Translations under genes and position numbers: made by a program
Assembly: GCA_034520215.1 (NCBI GenBank)
Contig: JAXHNR010000002.1
Location: forward strand, 963,308 to 1,027,307
Reading direction: 5' to 3'
Origin: Candidatus Krumholzibacteriota bacterium
GTDB lineage: Bacteria > Krumholzibacteriota > Krumholzibacteriia > Krumholzibacteriales > WJIX01
DNA: 64,000 nucleotides
In this document: one piece after another, positions 26,556-60,245 of the stretch
Numbering within the stretch: position 1 is the stretch's first letter
Layout of the letters: the number at the start of each line of letters is the position of its first letter
Notes under the pieces: generated by a model
Seen by the model: only the letters and a program-made list of their open reading frames with translations
Database searches by the model: none
Told to the model about the DNA's origin: nothing

Positions 26556-28232
26556 TTAGAAACGTGAAAAATAGTCACCGGCAATCTTTTTGGCTTTTCC
26601 TGAAAGAACAAGAATAGCTATGAGGTTTGGTATCGCCATAAGCCCAAGGGCGGTATCTCCGAAAGCCCAAACCAATTCAAGAGAGAATATCGCTCCCAGA
26701 AAGTGAATTACACAGAATATTATTCTATAAGGCAAGATGGCCTTTGTTCCGAATAGATACTCTACACTTCTGTCTCCGTAATATGACCATGAAATAGCTG
26801 TTGAAAGAGCGAATAAAAAGACGGCGATTGTAACGATATAATTGCCGCCACCAAAGAGGGGAGACATTCCCTTTTTAAACGCCCAGGCTGTAAGGGGAGA
26901 TCCGTTTTGAAGAGCCTTGCCCGTCAGTTGAATTTCGTGGCCGTCGATAATCGCCTCGCTGCTGTCGATGAAATGAATAGCACCGCCGGCTTTCTTTTCG
27001 ATTAATCCGTTGAATTCATTGTTCCCCTTTAAGAGCAGGGGAGAATCGATTGTGCTGTTGTTTCTGACAAAAATAACCCCTTCAGCCTTTCCGTCAGTTA
27101 CTTTGTAATAGCCCTCATCTGCTATATCCTTTTCCAGAATGATGCCGTCAGGGTGAATCTTGCCGCTGTCTTTCATTATAGTAATCTGAGATTGTTCAAC
27201 AAATGGAATCGTTTCGAGCATTTTGTCTTTCCACACTCCGAGAGTTACAATTGTAAGACCGGTTAGAGTACAAACCAGAATTGTATCAATATAAGGTCCC
27301 AGCATAGCTACAAGCCCCTCGCGGGCGGGTTCGCTGGTCTTAGCCGCAGCGTGAGCTATAGGAGCGCTTCCCTGCCCCGCTTCGTTGGAGAATATCCCGC
27401 GCTTTACTCCCCATATAAGCATGAACATAAAGCTTGAACCGAAGAAACCGCCAACACCGGCCTTTGCGTTGAACGCGTCGTAAAAAATTGTCGTAAATGC
27501 CCCCGGAATACTTCCGGCGTGCATAAATAGGATAATAATGGCTCCGGTAAAATACATAGTCGCCATAAATGGAACAAGCTTGCTAGCGACTTTTCCGATT
27601 CGCCGAATTCCCCCTATGATAACCAGCCCTATTAATGTAGCCATTACAGAGCCGGTAATCCATGTTGGTATTCCAAAATCACTTCTAAAGGAGTCCGCTA
27701 CGGTAAAGGCCTGTACGCTGTTACCACTTCCAAATGATGAAATAACAGCGCACACGGCGAAGATAATCGCCAGGAATTTCCATTTGCCGCCCATACCCTT
27801 TTCAATGTAGTACATAGGCCCGCCGGAGACTACACCGTCGGGGTTTACCTTCCTGAAATGTGTGCTCAAAGTACATTCAGTGAATTTTGATGCTGTACCC
27901 AGGATGGCTGTAACCCACATCCAGAATAACGCTCCCGGCCCGCCGTAGTGGATTGCGGTTGCCACACCGGCGATATTGCCTATGCCAATCGTTGCTGAGA
28001 GCGCTGCCGAGAGGGCCTGAAAATGGTTTATCTCACCGGAATCTTCGGGATTGTCGTATTTTCCGGCTATTACCTTGAGGCTGTGTCTGATCTTACGCAC
28101 CTGAATAAAGCGCATTCGTATTGTCAAAAAGATACCGGTTCCGAGCAATAGAACAAGAAAGTATGGGAAAGAACTTGGAAATTCCCAGATATACCGGTAT
28201 ATGATATCAATGAAACCTTTGACCGCGTCCAT
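26556..28232 (-). CDS. Na+:alanine/glycine symporter (AGCS family) with inserted soluble domain
   Basis: 558 residues against the usual 450-490. The family core is clear: FQALSAALSATIGIGNIAGVATAI, GALFWMWVTAILG, GGPMYYIEKGMG, GVKRGIFSNEAGQGSAPIAHAAAKT and STAISWSYYGDRSVEYLFG. Between the helix ending TLGVW (about 334) and SPLTAWAFKKG (about 446) lies a hydrophilic insert of about 105 residues that replaces a short loop. It probably faces the outside, since the loop precedes the conserved C-terminal helices (inference). It is divergent in neither codon use nor frame. It lies 53 nt downstream of the NSS symporter gene on the same strand. Confidence 0.92.
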   Translation of the reverse strand: MDAVKGFIDIIYRYIWEFPSSFPYFLVLLLGTGIFLTIRMRFIQVRKIRHSLKVIAGKYDNPEDSGEINHFQALSAALSATIGIGNIAGVATAIHYGGPGALFWMWVTAILGTASKFTECTLSTHFRKVNPDGVVSGGPMYYIEKGMGGKWKFLAIIFAVCAVISSFGSGNSVQAFTVADSFRSDFGIPTWITGSVMATLIGLVIIGGIRRIGKVASKLVPFMATMYFTGAIIILFMHAGSIPGAFTTIFYDAFNAKAGVGGFFGSSFMFMLIWGVKRGIFSNEAGQGSAPIAHAAAKTSEPAREGLVAMLGPYIDTILVCTLTGLTIVTLGVWKDKMLETIPFVEQSQITIMKDSGKIHPDGIILEKDIADEGYYKVTDGKAEGVIFVRNNSTIDSPLLLKGNNEFNGLIEKKAGGAIHFIDSSEAIIDGHEIQLTGKALQNGSPLTAWAFKKGMSPLFGGGNYIVTIAVFLFALSTAISWSYYGDRSVEYLFGTKAILPYRIIFCVIHFLGAIFSLELVWAFGDTALGLMAIPNLIAILVLSGKAKKIAGDYFSRF

Positions 28233-28285: not shown

Positions 28286-29623
28286 CTATTTAGTAACTAA
28301 GAAAAAGATCAATGCCAAAATAACAGCCGGGCAGAAAAACTTGATAAGTATGCTGAATATTACCCCCGTAAATTTGAATTTAGTTCCGCTCTTTCTTATT
28401 TCATTTATCGCGTTTTCTGTTTTCCAAACCCAGGCTATAAATATTGAAAGAAACAGCGCTCCCACCGCCAGCATAATGTTACCGAAAATCCAATCCATAA
28501 GGTCAAGAAACCCCATATGTATAAAGGGAAGATAATTTAACCGGGGAACTATTCCCTGTGAAAGAGCTGAGGGCAGGCCGAGTATTAGAACGATAAGGGC
28601 TATAACCCACACGGCTTTTTTTCTGACCCATCCCTTTTCATCGACAAAATATGCTGTAGCAACTTCGAGAAGGGATATCGTCGACGTTAACGCCGCTATA
28701 GACAGGAGCAGAAAGAAGGAGGCGCCTATGAAACTTCCACCGGGAATAGATGAAAATATCTTCGGGAGAACCTCGAAAACAAGGCTGGGCCCCGCTGCCG
28801 GATCCATGCCGGAAGCGAAGAGGGCTGGAAATATCAAAAGCCCCGCCATAACAGCTATAAGTGTGTCAAATAGGGCGACAGAGGTGCCGTTAAGTAACAG
28901 ATTGGAATTCTCCGAAAGGTAGCTGCCGTATGTTATCATACAGCCCATTCCGAGACTGAGTGAAAAGAAAGCCTGTCCCATAGCCGCGAGAACCGTCTGT
29001 CCTGTAACTTTGCTGAAATCGGGTTTGAAGTAGAAAACGAGACCTTTACCCGCGCCCTCCAGTGTTACAGAACGTATTATAAGAGCGATCATGAGAAAAA
29101 GCAGGATGGGCATTAGAATCTTTGCCCATCTTTCGATTCCGTTTTTGATTCCACCCTGTACTACAAGTACAGTAATTACCGTAAAGATGATAAATAGTGA
29201 AATTGCGGGGAGGGGATTTGATGAGAACGACTCAAAGTCAGCATGATTGCCGGCGAGCGTTTTTCCGATGTATCCCAGAGTATATCCCGCGATAACGGAA
29301 TAGTATGAGAGAATGCATATTCCGGTGATGACACCAAGAAAGCCGACGATCTTCCAAGGAGTTCGGGGTTTGATTGATTCAAATGCTCCAACTGGATTTT
29401 TGCGGCTGTATCTTCCGAGAGTGAGTTCCCCGAGCATAACAGGCAGTCCCAAAAGCAGTATACAGATGAGATATATAATGAGGAAAGCTCCTCCGCCATT
29501 CTCTCCCACTACGTATGGAAATCTCCATATATTCCCAAGGCCTATGGCGGAACCTGCCGCGGCTAGAATAAAACCGATATTAGATCCCCATTGATCCCGC
29601 TTTAAAACCTTGCCTGCCGTCAT
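28286..29623 (-). CDS. Neurotransmitter:sodium symporter family transporter
   Basis: 445 residues, LeuT fold, about 11-12 membrane helices. Na+ and substrate site segment AAAGSAIGLGNIWRFPYVVGENGGGAF at the N terminus, then LLGLPVMLGELTLGR. Bacterial members take up amino acids such as Leu, Trp or Tyr; the substrate here cannot be told. It forms a minus-strand pair with the AGCS gene. Confidence 0.92.
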   Translation of the reverse strand: MTAGKVLKRDQWGSNIGFILAAAGSAIGLGNIWRFPYVVGENGGGAFLIIYLICILLLGLPVMLGELTLGRYSRKNPVGAFESIKPRTPWKIVGFLGVITGICILSYYSVIAGYTLGYIGKTLAGNHADFESFSSNPLPAISLFIIFTVITVLVVQGGIKNGIERWAKILMPILLFLMIALIIRSVTLEGAGKGLVFYFKPDFSKVTGQTVLAAMGQAFFSLSLGMGCMITYGSYLSENSNLLLNGTSVALFDTLIAVMAGLLIFPALFASGMDPAAGPSLVFEVLPKIFSSIPGGSFIGASFFLLLSIAALTSTISLLEVATAYFVDEKGWVRKKAVWVIALIVLILGLPSALSQGIVPRLNYLPFIHMGFLDLMDWIFGNIMLAVGALFLSIFIAWVWKTENAINEIRKSGTKFKFTGVIFSILIKFFCPAVILALIFFLVTK

Positions 29624-31424: not shown

Positions 31425-32765
31425 ATGAGTGATACAAGCTACGGTAAAGGTAAGAGGGTTTCACCTGAAGAGGTACACGATGTGCTAGATAAGCATATGC
31501 TGATCGACGGCTATCCCATAGTTTTTGATCTTGATAAGAGTCATGGAAGCTGGCTGGTGAACTCACTTGACGGTAAAGAGTATCTTGATTTTTTCACATT
31601 TTTTGCCTCCGGCGCTATTGGTCATAATCATCCTGGGCTTTTTGAGGATGATTTTTTAAATGAACTGACTAAAGTTGCGGTAAATAAGGTTTCTAACTCT
31701 GATTTATATACTACGCAAATGGCGGAGTTCGTAGAGACATTTTCAGAAATAGCGGCTCCTGATTATCTCCCTAACCTCTTCTTTGTAAGCGGCGGTGCAC
31801 TTGCCGTGGAAAATGCTCTAAAGGCGGCTTTTGACTGGAAAGTTCAGAAGAATAAAGAAAAGGGGATCGAAGGAGAAATAGGCCAGAAGGTAATTCACTT
31901 CAAGGAGGCTTTCCACGGCCGTACAGGATATACGATGTCCCTTACGAATACCGATCCTACTAAAATAAGATTCTTTCCTAAATTCGATTGGCCCCGGGTT
32001 GAGAATCCGAAAGTCAAATTCCCCCTCGAAGAGAATATTGATGAGATTAAAGCCGCGGAAAAACGGGCAATCGATTCAATCGAGAAGTTTGTGGCCGATG
32101 ACGCCGATGATATAGCAGCTATTATTATCGAGCCGATACAGGGCGAAGGCGGGGACAATCATTTCCGCCGAGAGTTCTTTCAGCAACTCAGAAGGATCGC
32201 TGATGATAATGAGATAATTTTGATCTTCGACGAAGTTCAGACCGGACTTGGTATTACAGGGAAAATGTGGGCGCATCAGCATTATGGCGTAAACCCCGAT
32301 ATTCTTGCTTTTGGAAAAAAGACTCAGGTGTGTGGAATAATGGCCGGCAACCGGCTTAATGAAGTTGACGGAGTTTTTAAGGTTTCCGGCAGAATTAATT
32401 CTACTTGGGGCGGTAACATTGTGGATATGTACAGAGCCAAAAGGATTTTGGAAGTCATAGAACAAGATAAACTTGTGGAAAATGCTTCTAAAATGGGTAC
32501 TTTGCTTCAGAAGGGTTTAGAAAAGGTTCAGTCTGAAAACCCGAATGTAATCTTAAACGCGAGGGGACTCGGGCTGTTTTGCGCTTTTGATCTTAAAGAC
32601 GGCGAGACGAGAGATAAGGTGGTTGATAAGCTGTTCGAGAAAGGTCTGTTTATTCTAAAATGCGGACCGTCTACGATAAGATTCCGTCCTCCGCTCAACG
32701 TAAGTGAGGAAGAAATTGATAAGGCGTTAGAGATTCTCGCGGCCACAATAGAGGATATAAAATAA
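31425..32765 (+). CDS. lat: L-lysine 6-transaminase
   Basis: 446 residues, class III PLP aminotransferase. The segments LDFFTFFASGAIGHNHPGL, FVSGGALAVENALKAAFDWK, FKEAFHGRTGYTMSLTNTDP and IFDEVQTGLGITGKMW are typical of lysine 6-aminotransferase (Lat) rather than of ornithine or GABA aminotransferases. The PLP lysine is in AFGKKTQVCG. It moves the epsilon-amino group of lysine to 2-oxoglutarate, giving the semialdehyde that cyclises to piperideine-6-carboxylate. Its own promoter and terminator make it monocistronic; no piperideine-6-carboxylate dehydrogenase is adjacent. Family certain, specificity likely. Confidence 0.9.
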   Translation: MSDTSYGKGKRVSPEEVHDVLDKHMLIDGYPIVFDLDKSHGSWLVNSLDGKEYLDFFTFFASGAIGHNHPGLFEDDFLNELTKVAVNKVSNSDLYTTQMAEFVETFSEIAAPDYLPNLFFVSGGALAVENALKAAFDWKVQKNKEKGIEGEIGQKVIHFKEAFHGRTGYTMSLTNTDPTKIRFFPKFDWPRVENPKVKFPLEENIDEIKAAEKRAIDSIEKFVADDADDIAAIIIEPIQGEGGDNHFRREFFQQLRRIADDNEIILIFDEVQTGLGITGKMWAHQHYGVNPDILAFGKKTQVCGIMAGNRLNEVDGVFKVSGRINSTWGGNIVDMYRAKRILEVIEQDKLVENASKMGTLLQKGLEKVQSENPNVILNARGLGLFCAFDLKDGETRDKVVDKLFEKGLFILKCGPSTIRFRPPLNVSEEEIDKALEILAATIEDIK

Positions 32766-32869
32766 CAAAGGATTCGCGTTTATGTTCTTTCCTTGTTGTA
32801 TCAATTCTAGCGGGGTTTAATAAGCCGCGCTTATCGATTGATTGTCTCGAGAAAAATTATAAAGCTCTG

Positions 32870-34020: not shown

Positions 34021-34087
34021 CGCTGCAAGCCGGCTTAAGTCCGTCTTAAAACAGTTTTGTTTCTATGCTGAGCTATACGATTTTTCT

Positions 34088-39638: not shown

Positions 39639-41016
39639 CTATTTTTTTCCGAAAAATTCGCCGTGTATCGCCCTGATTGTCTTAGCTCTGTCCCTGCTGT
39701 CAATGAGGAAATATATCGCGACTCTGGATGTTCCGGAAGCTATGAGCTGTATGTTTATTTTTTTTTCTGAAACCGCTCTCAGAGCTCTTACCGCTATACC
39801 GCGTCTTTTGTCCATTCCTTCTCCGACAAGTGCGATCAGAGAACTGTCATCGTAACATTCTATCGTATCGATTGTGGGAAGTTTAAGGGATTTAATCTTT
39901 CCGCAGCACTTATTGAGATCGGATTTGGAGACGAGGATATTCATGGAAGTCATTGATGAAATCATGGTTTTTATATTTACTCCAAGTTCGGCTATTTGAT
40001 CTATTGCTTTACTTAGAATATTACTTTTTATTCCAATGCCGGGATTTCCCAGTCTTATTACTCCTATATTGTCGATACAGGCGACACTTTTTACTACAGT
40101 CCTCTTTATAATGGATTTACTGCTTATAACGGTAAGGGGGGATCTTTTGCCCTTCTGGTTGTTTATATCGAATACTTTAACGGGTATTTTATTGTCGAGC
40201 AGCGGCTCGAAGGTTAGAGGGTGAAATATCTTTGCTCCGAAATATGACAATTCAGCGGCTTCATTGTAGCTCAGTTCTTTTATGCCGACCGGGTGTTTGA
40301 CAATATCCGGATCCGCGCCTGAGAAATCCGGAGACATCTTTCCAGATATCAACCGAAGAAGCATTGACGCAGTAAGCTATAGCCGATGCTGAATAGTCAC
40401 TTCCGCCTCGGCCTAGAGTGGTGATCCTATACTCGGTTGAGATGCCGTAGAAACCGGGGATTATATAAGTTGTATTCTTAGAAAAAATATTCTTGATATT
40501 CTTCTTTGACTGCTCCAGATCAATAGTGGCATTCCCATATTCTCCGTCAGTAACGAGTCCAATATTTTCCGGAAGCAGTTCCCGGCAATCTATATCCATG
40601 TACTTAAGGATTGACCCTAAAAGCAAAGATGAGAGTCTTTCACCGTAGCTGAGGAGCATATCTTCAGCGCAATTCGGAATGTCTTCAAGGCAGTGAATCC
40701 CGAGAAGATACTTGCCGAGTTTTTCTATCCTATAATCCAGCTTTAAAAGGGTATCTTCCCTTATATCCTTATCCTTGATATATTCTTCTATAATTCGTCT
40801 GTGTGAATTATTAAGATCTTTAAGGATAACATTAATAGCTTTTTTGTCCTGCTTTACACTGGTTACACTTTTGATCAACCGGTTTGTGACACCGTAAAGA
40901 GCGGAGACAACTATTATAATAGGTTCCCTGTAATTCTTTATCGCGTTAATTACTTTTAAAATATCTTCTCTGGATTTAAGGTTTGAGCCACCGAATTTAA
41001 CGACAGTTCTCTTCAT
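39639..41016 (-). pseudogene. Aspartate kinase, frameshifted
   Basis: The N-terminal part (KFGGSNL.., LSYGERLSSLLL, GFYGIS..TLGRGGSDYSA, VDIWKDVSGFL) and the C-terminal part (ADPDIV.., ELSYFGAKIFHP and two ACT domains with the NILVSKSDL and SLIALVGEGMDKRRGIAVRAL segments) are in two frames that meet near 40,320. Removing one base there, in the stretch coding LRxADPDIV, restores a full kinase of about 458 residues. First step of the Lys/Thr/Met pathway; ACT domains imply feedback control. It overlaps the end of asd by 4 nt (ATGA), so the two form an operon. Sequencing error and true inactivation cannot be told apart here. Confidence 0.9.
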
Positions 41017-42014
41017 ATATTCTCTCCATATTTTTCGATAAACAGTTCGGCATTCTGAATAGATCCTCCAGCCGCGCCCTTTACGAGGTTGTTCGATAGC
41101 AGCACGAAACCCGTAAGACCGCCTTCTTCTTTAAGCCTTCCCGTAAAAACCTGCATGCCCGGGGGATTTCCTTCGAAACTCATTTTTGACTCCGGCGGAA
41201 TCCGGTCTCCCAGATATTTTACGGGTCTGTCAGGCATGCTGGGAAGGTCGAATTCATTAAAAGAAAAGTTGTTCCATGCCTTTACGATCTCTGCCGTATC
41301 CGGTTTGGTTTCGAACTCAACCCAGACAGTTTCGAGGTGTCCGAAAGGTACGTCCACGCGAACGCAGAAGGGCATAATATCAGCATCTATCCGAAGTATC
41401 TTTGTAAGCTCTTTCTTGATCTTTTCTTCTTCCCCTTCTATCCAGGGAAGGGCGTTGCGGCGCAGCCTGCCGGAATTGAGGGCGCCAGATCCGGCTCCGG
41501 AAAGCGCCTGGTAAGTTGAAACAAACACCTTCAGGATGCCGAATTTTCTAAGCGGCGCGAGCGCGACCGCAAGTCCGGTTGTCGAGCAATTGGCGTTGGT
41601 TACAACAAAACCCTTTTCCGGATATCCCTGTTCGGATATTAATTCGATCTCCCCTGAGTTTACTTCCGGTATAAGGATGGGTACATCTTCGAAATATCTC
41701 ATCGCGCCGGCATTTGAGAAAACGGCGATCCCCCTCTCTCTAAGTTCCGGTTCCACGGAAGCGGCTATTTCCGAAGGAAGGGCACTGAAGGCGATTTTTA
41801 TTCCGAGTTCTGATAATTTTGAAGATTCACAACGAGATATTATTTTATCTCTGTATTTTCACGCCACTACTCCTGATTCATACGGTATACCCGCTTTTGA
41901 ATCAGAGGCTGTAAGCAGGACGGGGGAAAACCATTTGTGTCTGGAAAGCAGCCATATGAATGTCTGTCCCACCAGCCCCGTGGATCCTAAAACGGCTGTT
42001 TTTATCTCTTTCAT
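41013..42014 (-). pseudogene. asd: Aspartate-semialdehyde dehydrogenase with an in-frame TGA
   Basis: One frame from ATG 42014 to the stop at 41013 gives a full-length protein (333 codons) broken only by TGA at 41861-41859 (codon 52), in GVVA(stop)KYRDKI. Family members have a conserved Trp near this place, so TGG to TGA is the likely change. NAD-binding GSTGLVGQTF, catalytic Cys in NANCSTTGLA and His in VPFGHLE are intact; the sequence is of the archaeal/fungal-like subgroup. Initiation after the stop (41756) would lose most of the NADP site. TGA is a normal stop in neighbouring genes (yebC, for example), so recoding is unlikely. Confidence 0.9.
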
Positions 42015-42153: not shown

Positions 42154-45100
42154 TCAGCGAAGTAGAATAAGCCGCTCCGTAGAGGTAAATGAACCGATTT
42201 GTAATCTGCAGAAATATATATTACTGGCAGCGTTTCTGCCGGTCTTGTCTTTTCCGTCCCATACGGTTTGATGTTTCCCCTCGGGAAGAATCTTGTTGAC
42301 CAATGTCCGGATTGAACGCCCCGATACGTCGTAAATCCTCATAGTCACAGGCGATTTTTCAGCAACTTCGAAAGGAATGACGGTCGTCGGGTTAAATGGA
42401 TTAGGGTAGGCGGGGTATAGGCTGTTGGCAAGAATCGGCGGATGTTCCTCCCCGTCGTCAATGTCTGTATATCTTTCAGTTGAGATGTTTATATCGTCTA
42501 TATACCACCCCTCGAATCCGTACTGTTCATTACTCGCGAAATGGAATCTGATCATAACCTGGCCGCTGAAGGCGGAAAGATCGAACTCCTGGTATTCCCA
42601 GCCGGTCCGGCCTGAATAGCATCTCTGGTATGGATCTAAGAATATTGTGTTTGAACCGCTCGCCCTGCAGGGGTAGTTATAAACAGGAGAAATAGCCGTC
42701 CAGGAATCTCCTCCGTCCGTTGTTATTTCTACAATTCCTCCGTCCTCGGCCCAGTAGGGATAAACCGATTCGGCTTCCGCATCGATTTTATGGCGGAAAC
42801 TGAGTTGTGAATTCTCGCCAAGACAGAGGGGCGGGGAGACAAGAACCGCTTCCATCATATTCGGATAATCTTCCGGCGTTGCTGCCCCGCATTTCCAGCT
42901 ATTTGGCGAGGAATAGGATTCACTGCCGCTAATGTGCCAGCCGTCAACACCTACGATAGCCCTATGATCGAAGAAACTGACAGAATCAACGGGGTCATCA
43001 ATCATGTGGCCGCATGTCGTGACGAGCAATGTTTCGCTGTGAGAGGCGAAGTTTTCTTTTTCAAGTTTGAGGATTATCGGGAATTCAAAGAAGGGGGGCG
43101 CTTCGGGTTTTACAAAGAAGGAAAGACTGTTGTTCGAAGTAACGGTCGATCCCGTTGGGATGGATGGAAGTTCTGTTCTGTCTTTATACGGTCTTGCGTT
43201 TTCAAGGTCCGGCATAGAAAGAGTGAGAACAGAGGGCGGAATATCCACGCTCCCTTTATTTGTCCAGAAGCTCGTAAGATTGATGAATTCCCAGGCTTCA
43301 ACGCATCCGTTGCCGTTTCCAAGAAGAGTGTCGCTTGTAGCCCAACTTTCAAGCTTTATAACTGGGGAACTTACCGTGAGGAGACGGCGTGAATTCCATT
43401 CTCTGTCTGAAGAGGAGATATTAAAGTCCAATTCGACCGTGTAACCGTCTTGAACATCCGTGGAGAATTCGATTAGAAACTCCTTTTCAAGAATTATACA
43501 GGTTCGTTCCGGAAGAGAAAATGTGTCGCTTAGACTGTCAATATTCCATGTAAAGGGTGCATTACAGCTGAGGGTGACGTGACAATCGTTGATGGCTGAT
43601 GACCCCTGATTTGAAACGGTAATCCCTATACTGATCCTTTCACCGCTTTCAACAATACCGTCTCCGTCTCCAAAGCTCTCTCCGAGTGAGTTGTCGTCAA
43701 TATGGATACCTTCAAGTTCTGCCAGGGCATCCGGCGTTTGATCAATAAGAATCGAGTCGCGGTAGAGGTAATGATCAGCAGATTTTACTCTAAGCTGAAC
43801 AAACCCCGTGTCGGATATAGAAGGAGAGAGAACGGCTATTCCGTTTTTATCCGTGAAGGCGGTTTCGTATAGATTCGAACCGGTTTTGTAAATCGATACG
43901 AAAGAACCGCTTACGGGATTGAATCCGGATCTTGTTTCGATAGTGATGTTGTTGTTTCCAGGGGGAACCGTTGAGTCGTAAAGCACGCTGAGTTCTGAGG
44001 GTTCAGATGTCCAAATCATCATAGCCGGATCGCCAAGTAAGCACATTTCGTACATAACATAGCGGAAGAGGGGATAAGTGATATATGGAATATTGTCGAT
44101 ACGGGATTTGTCAAAAGCGCGGCCGATTGTCTTTATGGATTCACCAAAAAGAGCGTCAAAGAATTGTCTGTCGAAAAACTGGGAAACTCCGCATGTTGAT
44201 CCCGGGGCGTTCCAGCCGAATCTGGTATTGCCGATAAAAGCAACGGCGCCTCCGTTCGAAGTGATGAATTGCTCGGCGATCGCGTCCTCTGAGTATGTCG
44301 TTCCGACATAGTCTCTGTTGTCAAAAGCCGAAGTATAACATCCCTGAGAATATATGACAGAGGGTATTGCTTCTGTGCCGTTGTTTTCAAGTAGTGTGAT
44401 GGTGTTCTCTGTGATATGCATGGCATTATGAAGCCCGGTGTGGCCGAGGTGATTAACCAGATTTACTCCGCCGTTAAAGAGTGGTATCAAATCTGTTTCA
44501 TTCCACGGCAGAGGAAGGTCCTTATCATACAGTGTCTGACAATTAAAATTCTCTGATAGACCGGCTGTTTCAAGGTCAAAATTGTTCGACCCGCTAAGCA
44601 CTTCATTTTTATAATCCCCGCCCCATGTGTCAACACTGTCTTCAGACCAGAGAAGCTCTCCAAGCATAAGCGACTTTATGCATTGTTCTGATTGCGGTTG
44701 GAGAGTATAGGCGATCAGTTTAGCGATAAAGTTTTCAATATCCGCTTGATTGTTAACAGGCAGTCTGCCGAGGGTGACTTCAGGTATGAGGTCTTCTTCT
44801 CCCGGTTCGCCGTAGTATTGATCTCCGTCAGAATTCCAGTTGCCGTCAAGAGCCGCGTAATAGAGATCGGATGGAATGTCGGGCTCGATTTCACTGCCCG
44901 CGTTGACGTACAGACCCCGGTGAGGGATCAATTCATCATCGCCGCCAAGCAGGATATATTCAGCCTCCCAGTTGAAATAAGCGTGCGAGATGAAGTTTCT
45001 TATCTTCTCCTGGGTGTCGATTCCGACAAATGACGAATGTATCCAGTCTAAAGTGACGATATTCGCTTTTAATCCCATATCCGTTTTCAGGTCTGCCAGA

Positions 45101-45816
45101 GGCTGGAAATATTCACTTAGCTCATTTGATGTGATAATTATATAGGGGAAGCGGATTTCATCCCCGTAAACGCCCTCCGACTGTATTGCTTTTGTCTCGA
45201 CTGTTAGATCCTCTTTATTATCGATAAATCGAGAAATTTTATCGCGGGCGGTGGAAACAGCCCTTTGAGGATGAACAGGTTGAGGTTTGTTTATAAATTT
45301 TGTTTCCACTGTGACGCGTACAGAGTTTGTGTACGATACCGACCCTGTCGATGGTATTATTCTGCAGGGGTATATATTTACAAAAACAAGGTGGATGCCT
45401 GAAATTATCTGTTCTGTTACGAATTTTCCCTTCTCTTCGGGGTAGAGTGTGTTCAAAGCGTAGACACTTTTGTCTTTCCCGGGTACTTTATATGAGCTGA
45501 AGCCGATTGGTTTTTGATAGGGGGCGGGGGCAATCCGGAGAGAATCATTCAGCAGGGTATATTCCTCAGACTCTATAATGATCTCTGAAAGGGTCTCGCC
45601 GGGGGGCAGCAGAAAACAGGCTCTGTAAACAGGGATTACGGGCTTTCCCGGTTCGGATGTTCTTCCGCATCCATCCAGTTTCAGTATAACCCCATTCGAA
45701 ACCCGGACTATTTGAGGCTTACTAAATTGAAAATTCTTCGATAATTCCTTTGCGAGCGCGTTTCCGGCGAGTAGAAAAGCAGCCGCGCAAATAATCGCAA
45801 GATGTTTGAGTTTCAT
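42154..45816 (-). CDS. Secreted C25 (gingipain-type) cysteine protease with C-terminal sorting module
   Basis: 1220 residues. Signal peptide (MKLKHLAIICAAAFLLAGNALA); pro-region; C25 catalytic domain (about 220-610) with YILLGGDDELIPHRGLYV, LVNHLGHTGLHNAMHI (catalytic His region) and VIYSQGCYTSAFDNRD (catalytic Cys region), and then GGAVAFIGNTRFGW. After it come an Ig-like segment, a CARDB-like region with GDGDGIVESGERISIGITVSN, a MAM/immune-inhibitor-like domain ending FEGWYIDDINIS, and a C-terminal FlgD-like module (YPNPFNPTTVIPFEV.., VWDGKDKTGRNAASNIYFCRLQ) that in FCB-group bacteria directs secretion or cell attachment, type IX-like. Intact frame; monocistronic. Confidence 0.93.
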   Translation of the reverse strand: MKLKHLAIICAAAFLLAGNALAKELSKNFQFSKPQIVRVSNGVILKLDGCGRTSEPGKPVIPVYRACFLLPPGETLSEIIIESEEYTLLNDSLRIAPAPYQKPIGFSSYKVPGKDKSVYALNTLYPEEKGKFVTEQIISGIHLVFVNIYPCRIIPSTGSVSYTNSVRVTVETKFINKPQPVHPQRAVSTARDKISRFIDNKEDLTVETKAIQSEGVYGDEIRFPYIIITSNELSEYFQPLADLKTDMGLKANIVTLDWIHSSFVGIDTQEKIRNFISHAYFNWEAEYILLGGDDELIPHRGLYVNAGSEIEPDIPSDLYYAALDGNWNSDGDQYYGEPGEEDLIPEVTLGRLPVNNQADIENFIAKLIAYTLQPQSEQCIKSLMLGELLWSEDSVDTWGGDYKNEVLSGSNNFDLETAGLSENFNCQTLYDKDLPLPWNETDLIPLFNGGVNLVNHLGHTGLHNAMHITENTITLLENNGTEAIPSVIYSQGCYTSAFDNRDYVGTTYSEDAIAEQFITSNGGAVAFIGNTRFGWNAPGSTCGVSQFFDRQFFDALFGESIKTIGRAFDKSRIDNIPYITYPLFRYVMYEMCLLGDPAMMIWTSEPSELSVLYDSTVPPGNNNITIETRSGFNPVSGSFVSIYKTGSNLYETAFTDKNGIAVLSPSISDTGFVQLRVKSADHYLYRDSILIDQTPDALAELEGIHIDDNSLGESFGDGDGIVESGERISIGITVSNQGSSAINDCHVTLSCNAPFTWNIDSLSDTFSLPERTCIILEKEFLIEFSTDVQDGYTVELDFNISSSDREWNSRRLLTVSSPVIKLESWATSDTLLGNGNGCVEAWEFINLTSFWTNKGSVDIPPSVLTLSMPDLENARPYKDRTELPSIPTGSTVTSNNSLSFFVKPEAPPFFEFPIILKLEKENFASHSETLLVTTCGHMIDDPVDSVSFFDHRAIVGVDGWHISGSESYSSPNSWKCGAATPEDYPNMMEAVLVSPPLCLGENSQLSFRHKIDAEAESVYPYWAEDGGIVEITTDGGDSWTAISPVYNYPCRASGSNTIFLDPYQRCYSGRTGWEYQEFDLSAFSGQVMIRFHFASNEQYGFEGWYIDDINISTERYTDIDDGEEHPPILANSLYPAYPNPFNPTTVIPFEVAEKSPVTMRIYDVSGRSIRTLVNKILPEGKHQTVWDGKDKTGRNAASNIYFCRLQIGSFTSTERLILLR

Positions 45817-46991: not shown

Positions 46992-47620
46992 TTAATAGCG
47001 AGAAGAAATCTTTCTCAATTTTGGAATGATCTTGGTAAAAGCTTCTAAAGTGTATTCGATATCTTTTTTGGTTGTCCCTCTGCCCAGACTTATCCTGATC
47101 GATCCATTGGCAAATTCTTCAGGGACCCCGGTCGCGAGGATGACATGTGAAGCTCCGAGTGAACCGGAAGAACACGCCGACCCCGTTGAAACAGCAATCC
47201 CTTCAAGATCCAGGTACAGCATAATTGATTCACCTTCTACTCCTGCGAAAGAAACATTCAGAGTCCCGGGGATAGATTCAGTGGGATGGCCGATGAATTT
47301 AATGTCGGGGATGTTATCCTTGATCCCCTCTCTGAGTATCGATTTAAACCTAATCAGTCGTTTCGCTTCCTCATCCATTTCTGCTTTTCTCATCTCTATC
47401 GCTTTGGCAAATGCAATAATACCAAGGCTGTTTTCTGTTCCAGCTCTTCTTCCTTTTTCCTGGTGGCCCCCGTGTATCATCGGGCAGAAGGGGGTGTTCT
47501 TTTTGATGTACAAAGCTCCGATACCCTTGGGGCCGTATATCTTATGGGCGGAGTCATAAAATCCACTCCGAGTTCGCCTACGTCCACGGGATTTTCATCC
47601 GACACAATAAAGGATTTTAT
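46992..47620 (-). CDS. Cysteine desulfurase (IscS/NifS), 5' part lost at the junction
   Basis: The intact C-terminal 173 residues carry PMIHGGHQEKGRRAGTEN and the active-site Cys in STGSACSSGSLGASHV, ending before the scaffold gene. Upstream the PLP-lysine segment SAHKIYGPKGIGALYIKK is present, but in a different frame from PVDVGELGVDFMT; about 4 nt seem missing near 47,546-47,556. Further upstream recognisable sequence fades between 47,580 and about 47,640, where base composition jumps. The N-terminal 180 or so residues are not in this window. Supplies sulfur to the scaffold protein. Confidence 0.85.
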
Positions 47621-47660
47621 TTCTGGTCCGGCCGGCGTATTGTCTCCGGTGGGCTTGAAG
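47550..47660. other. Junction between two genomes (probable assembly chimera)
   Basis: Left of it: moderate GC, intact frames. Right of it: GC-rich DNA with frequent indels and alphaproteobacterium-like proteins. The break is inside a cysteine desulfurase gene, and small deletions begin just before it. No integrase, repeat or tRNA marks it as a natural insertion. Confidence 0.85.
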
Positions 47661-47708
47661 AGGCGTCGCCTGGCGCCGGGGTGTGTGCGCATTTGGGTTG
47701 ATACGGCG

Positions 47709-50700
47709 ATGACCAGGACGATCTTCGCGCTGGTGTTCGACCCAGGATGCGCGCGGCGGGACCACGCGGGGAAAACCAGAACGCGGCGGCCGCAACCGCG
47801 CCGGCCGAAGCCGCGGACCCGCTGTTCGGCGCTCGCGCTGGAAACCGCGCCTGCTGCTGGGACGCGGCGGCCGCGGCCACCGGGCGCCGAGGCGCTACGG
47901 CGACGACGGCGCCGAGCCGGGCCCGGCGGCGACCTGACCGGCGGCGACGCGGCACCGCCGACCGCAAGGCCGGCGGACGACCTGGCCGCGGCCAGGCCCT
48001 CGGCGGACGGCGGCGGCGGCGTATGCGCGGTCCGCCGTCGTGTTCGTCGACACCGGGGTGGAGGGGTGGCAGACGCTGGCCGACGGCGTCGACCCCGTCC
48101 GCGCAGCTCGTGCTGGTGGGGGCGAACGAGCGACGGCATGCGCGTCGATGGCCGACATCGCTGGCGCGCCGCAGCGACGTCCAGTCGGTGCACGTCCTGG
48201 GCCACGGCGGCGCCGGCGCGTTCTTCACGCTCGGCAGTGTGAGCTTGACGCCGATAGCCTTGAAACTCACCGGGCCGAACTTGGCAGCTTTATCGAAAGC
48301 GCCTTGGGCGCCGACGCCGCATGCTCTTGTACGGCTGTTACGTCGGCGCCGACGGCGAGGGTGCGGCCTTCCTGGACGCGCTCGCGACAGCGACCGGCGC
48401 GGACGTCGCCGCGCTCGAGCCGACCTGCACCTGGGCGGGCGCCGACAACTGGGCGGTGGATGGACGCTGGAAGCCTCGAGACCGGACAGATCGAAACCAG
48501 CCAGGCGGTCGCAGCCGTTGGCGGCGTCGTGCTTTCACTCGAGCGTCTGATGGCGTGCTCGACCAGAATTCCAACTCGTTGCCTGGCCAGACTGTAAACG
48601 ACCACGGCCTGATCGCTGGCGAACTTGGACCGATCGAACGGCGCGAAGGCGGGTCAGTCAGGAGCTCGGGACTTTCGGTGACTTCACCATCTGCGGTACC
48701 GGCTTTTGCGCCGGATCTCGATAACGGGCGCTGGAGACGAAGTTCCAGGCGGTCTTGGCGATTTTGGCGAAGCGGCACGCGGCCGCGTCAGCAATACGAC
48801 CGATGGGCGGATGGGTCTTGATCACGGTCGACTGTCGATGGACCGCACGTCAGCTCGGGGGAATTGACCGGTGTACAGGCCTCAAGGAGTTCATCGATGG
48901 CACTGCATGGTCGCCACTGGGGCTGACCGCCATCCGTGCGAGCGACGGCGCCACGCTGACCGGTAACAGCCGCCGACCCGGCGACTGGTAGCGCGGGTCA
49001 GCTAGTACCAGCTTCTCCGGTGACCCGTTTGGGGAGCTCCGTGAATTTGGGGACTTCGCAGGCAAACAAACAACCAGCGGCACGCTGACAGTCCATGCGG
49101 TCCCTGGAACCTCCCCCTACGACTTCTGCTTGTTCGAATCCACCGGCGACAACTTTACGAGCGGCAACACCGCCGACCGGGCTTCACCAGCTCGGCGACG
49201 GCCAGTGCTCAGCGAGGGAGTCGAACACGGCAAGATCATCCACGGTGGCGCCGGACGTCGACGCGGACGATCCGGCGACGGCGGACGCGGCGCTCACCTA
49301 CGCCGTCGACCTGACCGATGGCCAACGGCGCGCTGTTCGTCGACGGCAGCGGCGGCTTCGGCATCGATGGACGACGCTGGACGGCGAAATCAGGTCCAAC
49401 CCGGCTCGCCCCATACCTGAATCACGCAGGCCGACGCCGACGCCAGCGACAGCTACGCAATCCGCGGTGACGGCCGACGACGGCTCGGAGGCAACCGAGC
49501 GATTCACTTCGCCTTCACCGTCGAGGACGGCGATCGCGATCACGGTCACCGACGTCGACGAGGTCGCCATGACCGTCACGTCCGCCAGCGACGCGCCATC
49601 GATTCGGCGGCCGAAACCGCCGGCAACGGCAGCGCGGTGATCGACGTCAACGCCAACGTCGGCGGCGCGGACGGACGAGGGCACGCTGACCTACGCGTCG
49701 TCAGCCGGCGACACGGGCGGAGCGTTCGCCGATCGACAGCACGAACACGGCGCGATCACCGTGCGACGACGCGCGACGATCGACCACGACCACGCCAGTC
49801 CTACAGCCATCACGGTCCGCGCGACCGGACGGCACCGGCCAGCTCGACGACCAGACGATCACCGTCACCGTCACCGACGTGAACGAGGCGCCGGCGATCG
49901 CCGGCACGGCGGCAACTCCGACGATCGACGACACCGCGACGACCACGCCCTTCTCGCCGCTCAGCTTCAGCGATCCGGAGGGCGACGGCGGCACCGATCG
50001 CGATCACCTACACCGGCGCCAACGGCACGCTGAGCGGCACCGGGCTGACCGGCACACGCCAGCGGCAACTACACGGTGGCGGGCAGCACAGCGGCGGAGT
50101 TGACCAGCCGGCTGCAGGCGCTGGTGTTCACGCCGACGACCAACCAGGTCGCGCCGAGCCAGCACGGTCCAGACCACCTTCACCCTGACCCCGAACGACG
50201 GCAGCCTCGGCGGCACGGCGAACAGCGACCACGGTCGTCACCGCGACCTCGGTCAACGACGCGCCGACCGACATCACGTTGTCGTCCAATAGCGTGAACC
50301 AGTCCGGCGGGACGGACGCGGTCGTGGGCAGCGCTCGGCGCCGTGGACCCGGATACCGGCGACACCGCCACCTTCACGCTGGTGACCGGCGCTGGCGACA
50401 CGAACAACGGGTCGTTCAACATCTCCGGCGCCGACCTGCGCGCCAACGACGCCGCGGCGCTCGCCGCCGGGACCAGTTCGTGCGCGTGCGCGTGACCGAC
50501 GGCCAGTCGGCCACCTACGAGGAGGCGTTTACCGTCACCGTCGTCGACGACGTGGCGCCGGCCGCGCCCTCGACGCCGGACATGCGTCACGTCGGATGAC
50601 CGCGGCGATTCCCGATACCGACGACATCACCAACGTCACCACGCCTACCTTTACCGGCAGCGGCGAGCGGCGCCATCGTCACCCTGTTCGACGATGCCGA

Positions 50701-53700
50701 CAGCGACGGGGTGCTCGACAGCGGCGAAGAGCGTGGGTTCGGTCACCGTTACCGGCGGCACCTGGTCGATCACCTCGAGCACGCTCGCCGAAGGCACGCG
50801 CAACATCCGGGCAAGTCGAAGACGCTGCCAACAACGTCTCCGGCGCCTCCTCGATCTGTCCGTGACGATCGACACCACCGCGCCCAGCGGCCAGACGATC
50901 AGCGCCGACGACGGCCTGATCAACGCGGCCGAGGCCAGCAGCACCAGCTTCACCTTCGCCGGCGCGGAGGTCGGGGCCACCTACGACCTCACCGTCACCA
51001 GCTCCGGCGGCGGCGGCTCTGCCACCGCAACCGGCACAATCACCAGCGCCACCGAGCAGATCACCGGCATCGACGTCTCCGGCCTGCCCGACGGCACGCT
51101 CACCTATTCGTCTGTCCTGACCGACCCGGCCGGCAACGCTGCCGGCGCCGTCACCGACACCGCCACCCTCGACACCACCGCGCCCAGCGGCCAGACGATC
51201 AGCGCCGACGACGGCCTGATCAACGCGGCCGAGGCCAGCAGCACCAGCTTCACCTTCGCCGGCGCGGAGGTCGGGGCCACCTACGACCTCACCGTCACCA
51301 GCTCCGGCGGCGGCGGCTCGGTCACCGCGACCGGCACGGTCTCCAGCGCCACCCAGCAGATCACCGGCATCGACGTCTCCGGCCTGCGCCGACGGCACGC
51401 TCACCTATTCGTCGTCCTGACCGATCCGGCCGGCAACGCCGCCGGCGCCGTCACCGACACCGCCACCCTCGACACCGGCTGCGCCCACCGTCGGCGCCAA
51501 CACGGGCGTCGCGGTCGACGAGGGCGCCAGCGTGACGGTGACGAGCACCGACCTCGCGTTCATCGACGCGATCGACACCGATACCAACCTTCTCTACACC
51601 CTGAACGGCACCACCAACGGTACCGTGGTGCTGAACGGCGGCGACCTGCTCGAACGGCCAGACGTTCACGCAGGCCGACATCAACGCCGGTAACGTGGCG
51701 TTCCGTCACGACGACACCGAGACGGCCTCGGGCAGCTTCGCCTTCACCATCACCGACACGGCCGGCAACGTGCTGACCGGGCAGAGCGCGTCTGTCGCGG
51801 TGACGCTGGTCAACGACAACCCGCCGGTCGCCAACGACGACACCGACACGACCGACGAGGACACGGCGATCAGCCGCAACGCCGCGGCCGGCGTGATCGA
51901 CCTCAACGACACCGACGCCGACACGAACGCGAGCCTGAACGTCGTCGGCGTGCACCCGACCGGGGCCGTGACCGGCGGCACGGGCGTCGGCAGTTCGGTG
52001 ACCGGCACCAACGGCGGCACGTTCACGATCAACGCCGAACGGATCCTACGACCTTCGACCCGAACGGCGACTTCGACGACCTCTTGACCGGCAGCCGGGC
52101 GACGGCGAGTCACCTACACCCTGCTCGGACGGCAGCACCACCGACACCGCGACGCTCACCGTGACGGTACTGGCGGTCAACGACCCGCCCGTGATCGGCG
52201 GCGTTCGCGGGCGAGGACAACGAGGTCGTCGCCGGCGGCGGGTTGCTGCCCCTGAGCGGGTTCGACGACGCCACCGTCACCGACCCGGAGCAGCGGCGAC
52301 TACCGACGGCGGCACGCTGCGGATCGCGAACACCGGCGGCGCCAATGCCCAGCGCGGTCTCGGTCGGCGTCGACGCGGCGAACGTGCAGGCCCTCGATCG
52401 GAACGGCTCCTTGCCGGGATCGGCGCCGGCGCGACGATCGAAGTGGACGACGGCGGGGTCAGCGGCTTCGTCGCCATCGGCACGGTCGACGGCACCGAGG
52501 CCGGCCAGGCGGGCAACGATCTGGTCATCACCTTCAACAACCAAGCGACCAACGCGCGCGTCCAGATCCTCCTGCGCGCACTAAGCGCCGACGTGTCGAG
52601 CGGCTCTCACCACCCGCGAACTACCGAGCTGACCCTGAACGACGGCGACGCGAACACGGCGCCGGACGACGCGGTCACCACGGCCACCTTCTCGATCACC
52701 GGCACGCCCAACCCGCCGGTGATCTCCAACCTGGACGGCGACAGCGTGACCGCCGCCACCGGCGCGGTCGTGGCGATCGACCAGGGCGCCGCCGCCAGCG
52801 TCGGCGATCCGGATTCGGCCAATTTCGACGGCGGCAACCTGACGGTCGCGCGCACCTCCGGCCTGGCCGGCGACTTCTCGGTGAGCGGCTCGGCCGGGAC
52901 CGGGGTTAGCGCCGGCACGACCACCGGCGACGCCGACGGCACCATCGCCGCCGCGGACAACATCTACGTCGACGGGACCGACATCGGCGACGTCACCACC
53001 GACGGCCAGGGCAGCAACAACCTGGTGATCACCTTCGACGCCGACGCCACCGCGGCCCGTGTCGCGACAGTCATCCAGGCGCTGCGGTACGCCTCGACGG
53101 CCGCTGGCAGCCACACCTTCGACCTGACGGTGACCGACGCCGGCAGCAATGCCGCCACCTCCACCGCCGCCGGCTTGACCGTCGCTGTCGACGCCGTCCC
53201 GGTGAACACCGTGCCGGGGGCGCAGACCGCCACCGACGGGCAGGCGCTCGCCCTCCCCGGCGATCTGGGCTCGCGGACGCCGACAGCGCCGGCGTGACCA
53301 CCACGGTGAGCGTGCCGGGCGGGGCCGGAACCTTCCAGGCGACCGCCAGCGGCGTGGCAAGCGTGACCGGCACGGGCACGAACAGCGTGCAGATCGCCGG
53401 TACGCTCACGGATGTGAACGCCACGCTGGCCAGCCTGACCTACACGCCCGCGGTGAACGCCGCCGGCGCGCAGACGATCACGGTCACCACGAGCGACGGC
53501 TCGGCCTCGACCGGCGGCCCGAACACCGACAGCGACACCATCGCGGTCACCGTCGTCGACCGGCCGACGCTGGCCAACCTCGACGGCGACACGGTCGGCT
53601 ACAGCCAGCAGGGCGGCCCGGTGGCGCTCGACAGGCGGCACCGCGGTGGCGCTGAGCGACAGCGACAGCGCCAACTTCAACGGCGGCAGCCTGGCCGTCA

Positions 53701-55917
53701 CCTACCAGGCCGGCCAGCAGGCGGAAGACCGGCTGGTGATCGACACCAGCGGCACGGTGACCCTGTCCGCCGGCCAGACCGCGGGCAGCACCGTCTCGGT
53801 CGGCGGCACGGCCGTGGGGACGATCCAGGCGGGCGCGACCGGCGGTGACCAGCGAGGGCCTGACGATCAGCCTCGACGCCGGCGCGACACCCACGACCGT
53901 CGCCACGCTGATCGCGGCGATCGGCTACGACAACGCCGCCGGCGACACGCCCACGGGCGGCGACCGGACGATCCGCGTCACGGTCGACGACGGCACCACG
54001 GCGGGCGCCGGCGATCCCGCCGACGTCACCGTGCAGGTGGCGGCCGTCAACGACGCCGACCGGAACCGGTGTGCCGGCCACGATCACCGCGACCGAGGAC
54101 GTCGCCGCCAACATCGACCTGACCGGGCTCGCCCTGGCCGACGTCGACGCCGGGGCCAACCCGATCGTCCTCACCCTCGCGCGTCGACGCGGGCACGCTC
54201 TCGGCGAGCCGGCGGCGGCGGGGTGACGGTGGGCGGTACCGGCACCGGCACGCTCACCCTGACCGGCAGCGCGGCCAACCTGAACGCCTTCCTGGGCGAC
54301 GCCACGGCGGTGCAGTACACCTCCGCGGCCAACGCCAACGGCACCGGCGCGGCGACGCTCACCTTCACGCTCAACGACCAGGGCAACACCGGCTCCGGCG
54401 GCGGCACCAACGTCGCGCTGGGCAGCGCCCAGATCGACATCGCGGCCGTCAACGACGCGCCCACGGTGGCGAACGCCCCGGCCGACCAGACGACGGCCGC
54501 GGACAGGTCCTTCAGCTACCGGAACTGCCGGCCGGCACCTTCGCCGACGTCGACAGCGGCGACTGCCTCGACCTATACGGCGACTTCGGCCGGCGGCGGC
54601 GCCCTGCCAAGCTGGCTGACGTTCGACGCGGCGACCCGAACCTTCTCCGGCACGCCGGGCGAGGGCGAGGTCGGTACCGATCAGCCTGCAGGTGACGGCC
54701 GCCGACCCGTCGAACACCACGGCGACGACCACCTTCGACCTGACCGTGACCGAACAGCGGCGCCGACGGTGGCGAGCGCGCCGGTCGACCAGACCGCCAC
54801 GGCGGGCGATGCGTTCAGCTACCAGCTGCCCGCGAACACCTTCGCCGATCCGGACGCCGGAGCGACCCTGCTGCGCTGTCGGCCACGCTCCGCCAGCGGC
54901 GCCTCCCTGCCCGCGTGGCTCAGCTTCGACGCCGCCACGCGGACCTTCTCCGGCACGCCCGGCGACGGCGACACCGGCACGCTCAGCCTGCGGGTGACGG
55001 CCCAGGACGGCGCGGGCGCCACGGCGACCGCCAGCTTCGAGCTGAGCGTCGAGGCGGCCGAAGGCGACGACGATCCGGTGCCGCCGCCCAGCGACGGGGA
55101 CGACGACGACGATCCGGTGACCCCCACCGTCACCACCCTGGACCGCGGGCCGGTCCGGGTCACGGTGATCGAGATCGGCGGGGAGAACGTCCTGGTCGCC
55201 AACAGCGGCGTCGTCAGCGGCCGGGCGTTCGAGGCGATCCTGGGCACCTTCGACCGGGGCAACTCGCCACTCGCCCAGACGTTCCGCGCGGCCGCGGCCA
55301 ACCTGTCCGGCGAGCCCAGCGAGACGCTGCAGACAGCCCTCGGCGATTCGACGACCCGGGGCATCCTGGCCGACATCGAGGCGATCGGCGGCGAGACGCT
55401 GATCTTCCAGAACGGCGAGTGGCGTCCGCTCGACCTGGAGACCTGCTGCAGAGCGCGGCCGTGAGCGGGGATGCCCCGGCCGGGACGTCCGCGCTGGCCG
55501 GCACCGCGCCGGCGGACGCCGGGCCGACCGCCCTCGCCGCGGCGCCGGCAGCCGCACCCGCCGAGCGCGAGGCCACCCTGGCCGGGCTGCGCCAGGCGAC
55601 CCGCGACCTCTGGATCGAGCAGGCGATCGCCGCGCTCGCCGAGGCCGACGGCCTGGCCGACGGGCCTGGCGGACGGTGGCGACCTCTGGGCGGGCGGCGC
55701 GCCGGCGCCGGACGGCGGTCTGCCCGCCGGGCACCGGGCGGGCGACTTCGCCCAGCAGCTGCGCCAGCGCGCCGACGCGTTCGACCGCGACGCCCGCCTG
55801 CTGGCCGCCAGCCGTGGCGGTGGTCGAGCGCGCATAAGCCGGCACACCGCGGCCGGGCCGGACCGGGGGGTTGCCGGCGCGGCCGCGGTTCAGGCGGGCG
55901 CGGGCGCGCGGACGTAG
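47709..55917 (+). CDS. Giant DUF4347/cadherin-like repeat adhesin, many frameshifts
   Basis: Read across frames, one protein of about 2,700 residues. Near 47,810-47,890 is the N-terminal family motif reconstructed as LFGALALEPRLLLDAAAAAT. A DUF4347 domain follows (48,035-48,550: FVDTGVEGWQTLADGVD, VHVLGHGGAGAF, YGCYVGADGEGAAFLDALA). After a less clear stretch come cadherin/VCBS-like and bacterial Ig-like repeats (49,200-54,450, with NDAP-type linkers), two 100-residue units in tandem (50,881-51,480), two dystroglycan-type cadherin-like domains (54,450-55,060: SWLTFDAATRTFSGTPG), an acidic linker, and a unique C-terminal domain ending at 55,917. No RTX nonapeptides. Dozens of one-base indels break the frame, and they look like sequencing errors. 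The first ATG in a plausible place is 47,709; the true start is unsure. Secreted or surface adhesin, by analogy. Confidence 0.8.
50881..51480 (+). repeat. Two tandem 300-bp units in the adhesin gene
   Basis: Units start at 50,881 and 51,181, exactly 300 bp (100 residues) apart, and are almost identical over their whole length, beginning with the codons for APSGQTISADDGLINAAEAS and ending LTDPAGNAAGAVTDTATLD. The second copy has an extra base near 51,388 and a missing base about 20 nt later compared with the first. Each unit is one bacterial Ig-like domain. Recent duplication or gene conversion. Confidence 0.95.
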
Positions 55918-56039
55918 CCCCATGCGGCTGCGCGCCGCCCCGCCGCCCGCCCGCGGCCCCCGCGCCGCGGGGGCGGCGTCCGCCCCGAACCCGGCCGAGA
56001 CCTACCCGTTCGGCCACCGGCCGGCGGGGCAGTGCCTCA

Positions 56040-56084
56040 GGGCAAGATGCTGAAACGTGGACTCAGCGTTTCAGCATCTTGCCC
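56040..56084. terminator. Perfect 18-bp hairpin after the adhesin gene
   Basis: GGGCAAGATGCTGAAACG (56,040-56,057) pairs perfectly with 56,067-56,084 around a 9-nt loop. There is no T-tract, only CTCTCTT. Either a transcription end for the adhesin mRNA or a copy of a dispersed palindrome. Confidence 0.55.
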
Positions 56085-56100
56085 TCTCTTCAAGGAGTTC

Positions 56101-56152
56101 AGAGCAAAATTCGACGATGGAAGGCCGGTTCGGCTTTCATCGATTGTGCTCT
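56101..56152. repeat. Second long imperfect palindrome
   Basis: AGAGCA..ATTCGACGATGGAA at the left pairs with TTCATCGAT..TGTGCTCT at the right, with a GCCGG/CCGG top, about 22 pairs over 52 bp. It lies 16 bp after the first hairpin. Such palindromes are frequent between genes of alphaproteobacteria. Confidence 0.6.
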
Positions 56153-56274
56153 AGCGGCGGCCGCGCGGATCTGGACAGGGCCCCACCGAGAACACAGCGG
56201 GCACGGAGATCGACCGCGCGATCCAGGCGGGCGATCGGGCCATGCGCATGCGGTGAAACTGCCCCGCGCCCAAG

Positions 56275-56440
56275 GCGCGCCTGGACCTGGCTCGCACGCG
56301 AAGCGCGCCTGGACCGGGCTCGCGCGCGAAGCGCGCCTGGACCGGGCTCGCGCGCGAAGCGCGCCTGGACCGGGCTCGCGCGCGAAGCGCGCCTGGACTT
56401 GGCACATACGCAGCGCGTCTTGAACCGGCACGCGCGCGCG
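56275..56440 (+). repeat. 28-bp tandem repeat array
   Basis: Unit GCGCGCCTGGACCGGGCTCG followed by CGCGCGAA. Three units are perfect (56,303, 56,331, 56,359), with one diverged unit on the left (56,275) and two on the right (56,387, 56,413). The period is not a multiple of 3 and there are no spacers, so it is neither a protein repeat nor a CRISPR. Confidence 0.9.
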
Positions 56441-56501
56441 GCGCGCCGTTCGCTCTCTCGCGCTCTCTCTGTGCTCTCTGTGCCCTCCCTGCTCCACTCG
56501 C

Positions 56502-56571
56502 GCTTCGGGTCCTGCCCCGCTTCGGGTGCACTCCCCGCTTCGGGTCCAGCCCGGCCTCGGGTCCAGTCCGG
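56502..56571 (+). repeat. 17-18-bp tandem repeat array
   Basis: Four units starting GCTTCGGGT or GCCTCGGGT, each followed by CC/GC and a C-rich end. It follows a CT-rich stretch at 56,450-56,495. Confidence 0.75.
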
Positions 56572-56771
56572 CCCTGGCGTCCGCTTCGCTTATCACGCGC
56601 GCGCCGGCGGGCGCCGCACACGCGCGGCCGGTCAGGCCGCGGCGCCGTGTTGCAGCAATTCATTCGCGAAAACTGCAACTTGCGGTCAAAGCTTGATTTG
56701 CTTCTGGGGCGAGAAAGTGGCACAAGCAGGTGTTACGCTTGACACGCCGGAATCGGGGGCCTAGGAAAGCT

Positions 56772-60190: not shown

Positions 60191-60245
60191 CCCAATCCCG
60201 ACGCTGGCGGCAGCCGCCGCCGCGGCCGGCCGGTCGCGAGACCCG

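Follow-up and report, generated by a model that had tools for sequence, protein, structure and literature searches.

Aspartate kinase (Ask) and aspartate-semialdehyde dehydrogenase (Asd) are described by the protein families TIGR00657 and TIGR00978 (asd_EA type), respectively, and the PRK06270-type homoserine dehydrogenase by NF004912. The Latescibacteria have been described with auxotrophy to specific amino acids, and C25 proteases and amino-acid symporters are mentioned (PMC4454575). Similar features of the genome analyzed here are a C25-like protein, symporters and a possible auxotrophy; the word lysine is absent from the main text of the paper, and the passages available from it hold no statement on ask, asd or diaminopimelate (DAP). 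Among the literature matches listed, we recognized no treatment of a gap in the ask/asd pathway.

The DNA under study (the window) is a stretch of 64,000 nucleotides from a Candidatus Krumholzibacteriota bacterium, corresponding to C2:963308-1027307 and ending exactly at the end of contig C2, in a genome of 2.60 Mb on two contigs. It carries an asd-ask operon in which both genes are interrupted (Table 1). Set against the described families, the two ask fragments jointly cover the TIGR00657 profile and the window gene is split by one extra base. The C-terminal part of asd aligns with TIGR00978, and the window gene is broken by a stop at or near a shortened stretch. A protein from the sister-family genome G009 matches NF004912, and homoserine dehydrogenase genes (hom) of the sister family often lie near dapB-dapA.

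Table 1. Features of the window and of comparable loci (positions are those of the window unless a locus is named).
Feature	Position	Strand	Basis
Sodium:alanine symporter (agcS)	26556..28232	-	Profile match
Sodium-dependent transporter, neurotransmitter-symporter family	28286..29623	-	Profile match
L-lysine 6-transaminase (lysine catabolism)	31425..32765	+	TIGR03251, 662.5 bits (cut-off 520.8); ~7 kb from the operon
ask (aspartate kinase), in two parts owing to a frameshift of one base	39639..41016	-	ORFs, TIGR00657, comparison with G001 and G002
Region in which ask shifts frame (approximate), with an extra base compared with G001 and G002	40310..40330	-	Alignments
asd (aspartate-semialdehyde dehydrogenase, asd_EA type), interrupted	41013..42014	-	Translation, TIGR00978 match, comparison with G001
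In-frame TGA of asd	41859..41861	-	Within or next to a segment that lacks a net 21 nt compared with G001
C25/PorU-like protein of 1220 aa with T9SS-type tail, intact	42154..45816	-	Syntenic upstream gene; unbroken control between operon and contig end
Class-V aminotransferase, cut at the composition junction	46992..47513	-	Only profile positions 245-370 of 371 matched
GC-rich (~73%), frameshift-rich tail up to the end of contig C2, ~16.5 kb	47514..64000		GC step, phase changes, lesion density
Lrp-type regulator, Cys/Met PLP enzyme, homoserine dehydrogenase and aldehyde dehydrogenase in a row, near dapB-dapA	L125:3925-8322; L123:315-4621; L137:4383-8939		Sister-family genomes without ask/asd matches

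Lesions of the asd-ask operon

The ask gene consists of two ORFs on the minus strand (41016..40261 and 40364..39639), which match positions 1-218 and 222-441 of the 442 positions of TIGR00657 with 172.6 and 131.8 bits, both below the cut-off of 208.7. Alignment to the Ask protein of the relative G001 scores 1838 when one extra base is allowed and 855 when frameshifts are forbidden. Both G001 and G002 have an open frame of 458 aa for this gene, and the G001 homologue reaches 325.3 bits with the same profile. The single frameshift that the earlier note had seen in ask is confirmed. A full-length open ask frame above the TIGR00657 cut-off was not found in the window genome.

Translation of asd encounters one internal stop, the TGA listed in Table 1. 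The C-terminal fragment (41013-41756) corresponds to positions 90-341 of TIGR00978 (213.4 bits; cut-off 301.2), and is 74% identical across 247 aa to the G001 copy, which is open over 347 aa. Around the TGA, the gene lacks a net 21 nt compared with G001, and approximately 7 residues compared with the sister-family genome G011. A model with two frameshifts (alignment score 1268) and one that combines a stop and a gap of 7 residues (1262) account for the lesion almost equally well. The in-frame TGA described earlier is present, but not as a plain TGA at a conserved tryptophan, since it sits in or next to the net 21-nt shortening. As for ask, the window genome was found to hold no full-length open asd frame above the profile cut-off (TIGR00978).

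Relatives of the same genus have unbroken copies in the order seen in the window. The two genes overlap by 4 nt, likewise in G001 and G002; both are open in G001, whereas in G002 asd runs off the contig, and in G003 an ask match starts near the contig start and asd is absent. A gene order of ~9 kb is common to the window and G001, and the other matched genes of this block are unbroken in the window; these are C25-like, patatin-like, rhomboid-like and YigZ-like by names that are partly our own assignment. Upstream of asd, homologues of the complete C25-like gene are present in G001 (73%) and in G011 (44% across the whole length), and this shared upstream gene suggests common descent of the G011 and window operons. 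Named relatives obtained by searching genome contigs were two loci, both from Candidatus Latescibacterota MAGs, with L037 100% identical to the G001 Ask. The asd-ask genes of the assembly thus show two marks of a pseudogene, disabling lesions and unbroken homologues in relatives.

Outside the lesions, dN/dS relative to G001 is 0.113 for asd (269 codons), and 0.079 and 0.122 for the two parts of ask, with values from 0.055 to 0.109 for four intact neighbours. The values of asd and of one ask part slightly exceed the neighbours' maximum, and that of the other ask part is within the range of the neighbours. The values are close to those of intact genes and there is no clear relaxation of selection; because dS is near saturation, this result excludes long-standing decay only.

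Lesion frequency and the contig end

Lesions elsewhere were assessed by comparison with G001 proteins (394 queries, 126 genes matched), used instead of an earlier tblastn search with many false stops at HSP ends. In 125 kb of the window genome outside the operon three stops were flagged. We regard one of them as credible, a premature stop close to the end of a gene at ~14.2 kb of L027, which we take to be YjbQ-like and which is open in G001. The two others were dropped, as the ORF around one seems to derive from rRNA and the alignment around the other is poor. A gene-finding HMM, applied to 1.1 Mb, returned 34 events in 967 coding kb, with the asd and ask lesions among them, and 7 events in 320 coding kb of G001; as used, it found 40 of 73 frameshifts and 54 of 75 stops (23 of 73 and 13 of 69 at the first settings). 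Thirteen of the other 32 events were examined by eye, and comprise one apparent true frameshift (L084:6209, in a gene that we read as an RND transporter), two possible selenocysteine TGAs and ten apparently normal gene ends or junctions. The 19 events outside this set include two in the window, at 18909 and 19741. Given 12 to 21 random lesions per genome, of which the upper value is one per 125 kb scaled up and the lower a guess, 0.08 to 0.26 chance pairs within 1.6 kb are expected. The clustering of the asd and ask lesions beyond chance is suggestive, not strong.

The two possible selenocysteine TGAs, both in frame, are those at L062:12072, at the catalytic cysteine site of a gene that we read as peroxiredoxin-like, and at L088:13640, in the CGC motif of a gene that we read as DUF1573-like.

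Towards the end of the contig, the GC content steps from ~0.45 to 0.73 at ~47.5 kb, inside an aminotransferase gene, and the coding phase of the tail switches repeatedly. A GC3-based model counted 13 lesions in 10.6 coding kb of the tail versus 2 in the 158 kb that 13 control loci comprise, a comparison that is rough, because the controls are less GC-rich (0.51-0.70) and the sensitivity of the model is lower for them. The tail is probably a chimeric, uncorrected read joined to contig C2. It starts 5.5 kb from the operon. No lesion was seen between operon and tail (up to 45.8 kb in the comparison with G001 and up to 47.5 kb with the HMM), nor in the genes just before the operon with either approach; the poor quality of the tail therefore does not extend over the flanks of the operon.

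Supply of aspartate semialdehyde in the genome and in the order

Profile searches found no second asd or ask in the window genome. Two candidates for an alternative ask were discarded: the one at C1:1384930 is identified as a carbamate kinase by TIGR00746 (387.4 bits; cut-off 358.25), and the AA_kinase place at C1:1309664 is taken for PyrH on the basis of its sequence and its neighbours, which by our own reading are translation genes. The homoserine dehydrogenase domain (PF00742) has no match in the window genome or in the four other genomes of its family, four of these five genomes being 80-84% complete, and it was detected in 14 of 14 controls. For lysA (TIGR01048), there was no match in the five family genomes, and in the order as a whole (25 genomes) no match exceeded the cut-off, with matches below it in 6 of 20 sister-family genomes; above the cut-off it was found in 2 of 39 genomes and 11 of 14 controls. 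Neither lysine biosynthesis from DAP through lysA nor threonine and methionine biosynthesis through hom is therefore visible in the window genome. Four genes for DAP-type peptidoglycan are present. The dapA gene adjoins dapB and both are open (331.1 bits, cut-off 206.15, and 253.8 bits, cut-off 122, respectively), dapF (PF01678) is open, and MurE, which NF001126 identifies as a DAP ligase (559.6 bits; cut-off 373), is encoded inside a cell-wall gene cluster.

From this gene content, with hom and lysA missing and dapA, dapB, dapF and DAP-type MurE intact, we conclude that the only visible use of the asd-ask operon would be diaminopimelate for peptidoglycan. The absence of hom and lysA is not a consequence of the lesions, because both are missing in all five family genomes. 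A loss of lysine, threonine and methionine synthesis, as the earlier note had considered, is accordingly not supported as what the operon visibly does. The search for spare copies and for dapA and hom that it had proposed returned an intact dapA only. If real, the lesions would instead cut the diaminopimelate supply to the cell wall, as there is no spare copy and no hom while the DAP genes are intact.

Our searches covered 25 genomes of the order, of which five belong to the window's family and 20 to a sister family; incomplete genomes (61-97%) are numerous among them. In the sister family, ask (TIGR00657 above cut-off) and asd (PF02774) were both found in a single genome, G011, and 19 of 20 are without both; for incompleteness alone to produce this, P is about 1e-17, if the genomes are independent. 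The same genomes mostly retain dapB above cut-off (17 of 20, two partial) and dapF (17 of 20, one partial), and 15 of 20 have hom. All 15 belong to the 19 without ask and asd, and none of them matches asd, or ask above cut-off, so that the usual source of substrate for the sister-family hom is missing. A divergent asd that was missed is not the explanation we adopt, since PF02774 detects 14 of 14 controls, archaea included; an unrelated enzyme would escape this test. None of the five genomes of the window's family has hom, and G004 lacks ask, asd and hom alike. Across the 25 genomes, all five with an ask sequence are among the ten without hom (P 0.005 if independent, which the genomes are not). 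Four sister-family genomes lack all three genes, which is within incompleteness (2.75 expected). Outside the order the exclusion fails: among 14 more distant genomes of the class, hom occurs in 10, and asd also in 8 of these 10.

The position of hom was examined in dap loci from 12 of the 15 genomes that have it. Seven loci have hom at a distance of 0.1 to 6.3 kb from dapB, in two an aldehyde dehydrogenase gene adjoins dapB at the contig edge, and three are without hom in the piece at hand (one piece being 3 kb). Two further genomes have hom and dapB on one small contig, giving nine with hom near dapB. Among the seven hom-dapB loci, three have an Lrp-type gene, a Cys/Met PLP gene, hom and then an aldehyde dehydrogenase gene (Table 1), one has only the aldehyde dehydrogenase gene beside hom, and three have only hom. 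The family names of the proteins in this row derive from G009 proteins alone, and the G009 homoserine dehydrogenase, a single protein scanned, reaches 429.8 bits with NF004912 (cut-off 373).

We propose that aspartate semialdehyde may be made from aspartate in the one group and from homoserine in the other; the conversion of homoserine, which we infer, would in several genomes involve hom together with neighbours near dapBA that encode an Lrp-type regulator, a gamma-type Cys/Met PLP enzyme and an aldehyde dehydrogenase. A broader scheme would be that this order of Latescibacterota draws aspartate semialdehyde for diaminopimelate from two interchangeable sources, Ask-Asd or homoserine through an oxidatively working hom, that the two gene sets are mutually exclusive, and that the window genome has lost the first without gaining the second. 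We put this forward as a conjecture that is rather unlikely to hold in full. Broken operons are by themselves nothing unusual, and this one may be an artefact, whereas the pattern across the order is one that the textbook pathway does not explain. The sister family mostly keeps users of aspartate semialdehyde or of its products (dapB, dapF and hom), and 1 of 20 genomes matches both of the standard families that make it. Either an unrecognized enzyme fills this gap, or homoserine dehydrogenase runs backwards and feeds the cell wall; either answer, if true, would mean that pathway predictions for an uncultured phylum need correction.

Assembly error, recent mutation or loss

With confidence a little above even, we prefer to read the breaks as an assembly or consensus error, or at most a very recent mutation, and not as an established loss. 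Ask and Asd would then supply aspartate semialdehyde to DapA and DapB, and by way of diaminopimelate the peptidoglycan. The lesions would be errors near a demonstrably faulty contig end or would have arisen very recently in the sequenced strain, and the operon would be working in the population, whose intact sequence we infer. We favour this reading since genomes of the order seem to retain one gene set or the other, and the window genome would be left with neither. The main competitor is a real, recent inactivation of the whole operon, after which the strain would live on scavenged amino acids, diaminopimelate or muropeptides and follow its sister family; we consider this a serious possibility that falls somewhat short of an even chance. 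Several observations pull towards inactivation and away from error. Both genes of the operon are hit and the flanks are clean, out of reach of the poor tail. The change in asd is compound, a net loss of 21 nt with a stop, which is unusual for a consensus error, and the rest of the assembly looks clean, with one other credible lesion in 125 kb. Gene loss does occur in the order, as 19 of 20 sister-family genomes are without ask and asd, far beyond what incompleteness would give. Genes for uptake and lysine catabolism lie near the operon, and the slightly raised dN/dS of asd and one ask part does not favour error. Inactivation is opposed by the intact downstream DAP branch, for which no other source of substrate is visible, by the presence of hom in most sister genomes without ask and asd (15 of 19) and not in the window genome, and by selection that is not clearly relaxed. 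Regarding muropeptides, the Mpl recycling ligase was above cut-off in 0 of 39 genomes, a weak test as only 1 of 14 controls reaches the cut-off.

That clean flanks in a clean assembly surround compound lesions confined to one stretch would also be expected if the assembly had taken up a minority, defective haplotype of the operon from a mixture of strains, which we regard as very unlikely. Hardly credible is a recoding of the asd TGA, read through as selenocysteine or another residue in a functional Asd, and we rejected it. Selenocysteine is perhaps used elsewhere in the genome, in the two candidate TGA genes, but the TGA of asd does not coincide with a cysteine position, the residues around it are missing or shifted, and the frameshift in ask would be left unexplained. 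There is also no clear hairpin signal, as many shuffled sequences fold just as well as the 53 nt that run from the TGA (z -1.10, 29 of 200); the two candidate selenocysteine sites do no better either. No tRNA-Sec was seen in 53 sampled stretches that cover ~41% of the genome, a result that carries no weight either way.

The suggestion that the cell relies on uptake receives some support from the neighbourhood, where the two symporters that had been pointed out and the L-lysine 6-transaminase gene (Table 1) fit scavenging, but scavenging of this kind would not make up for a lost DAP supply. As a separate observation, a row of short coding-like segments follows the lysine transaminase gene (32857-34282), and these are possibly gene remnants.
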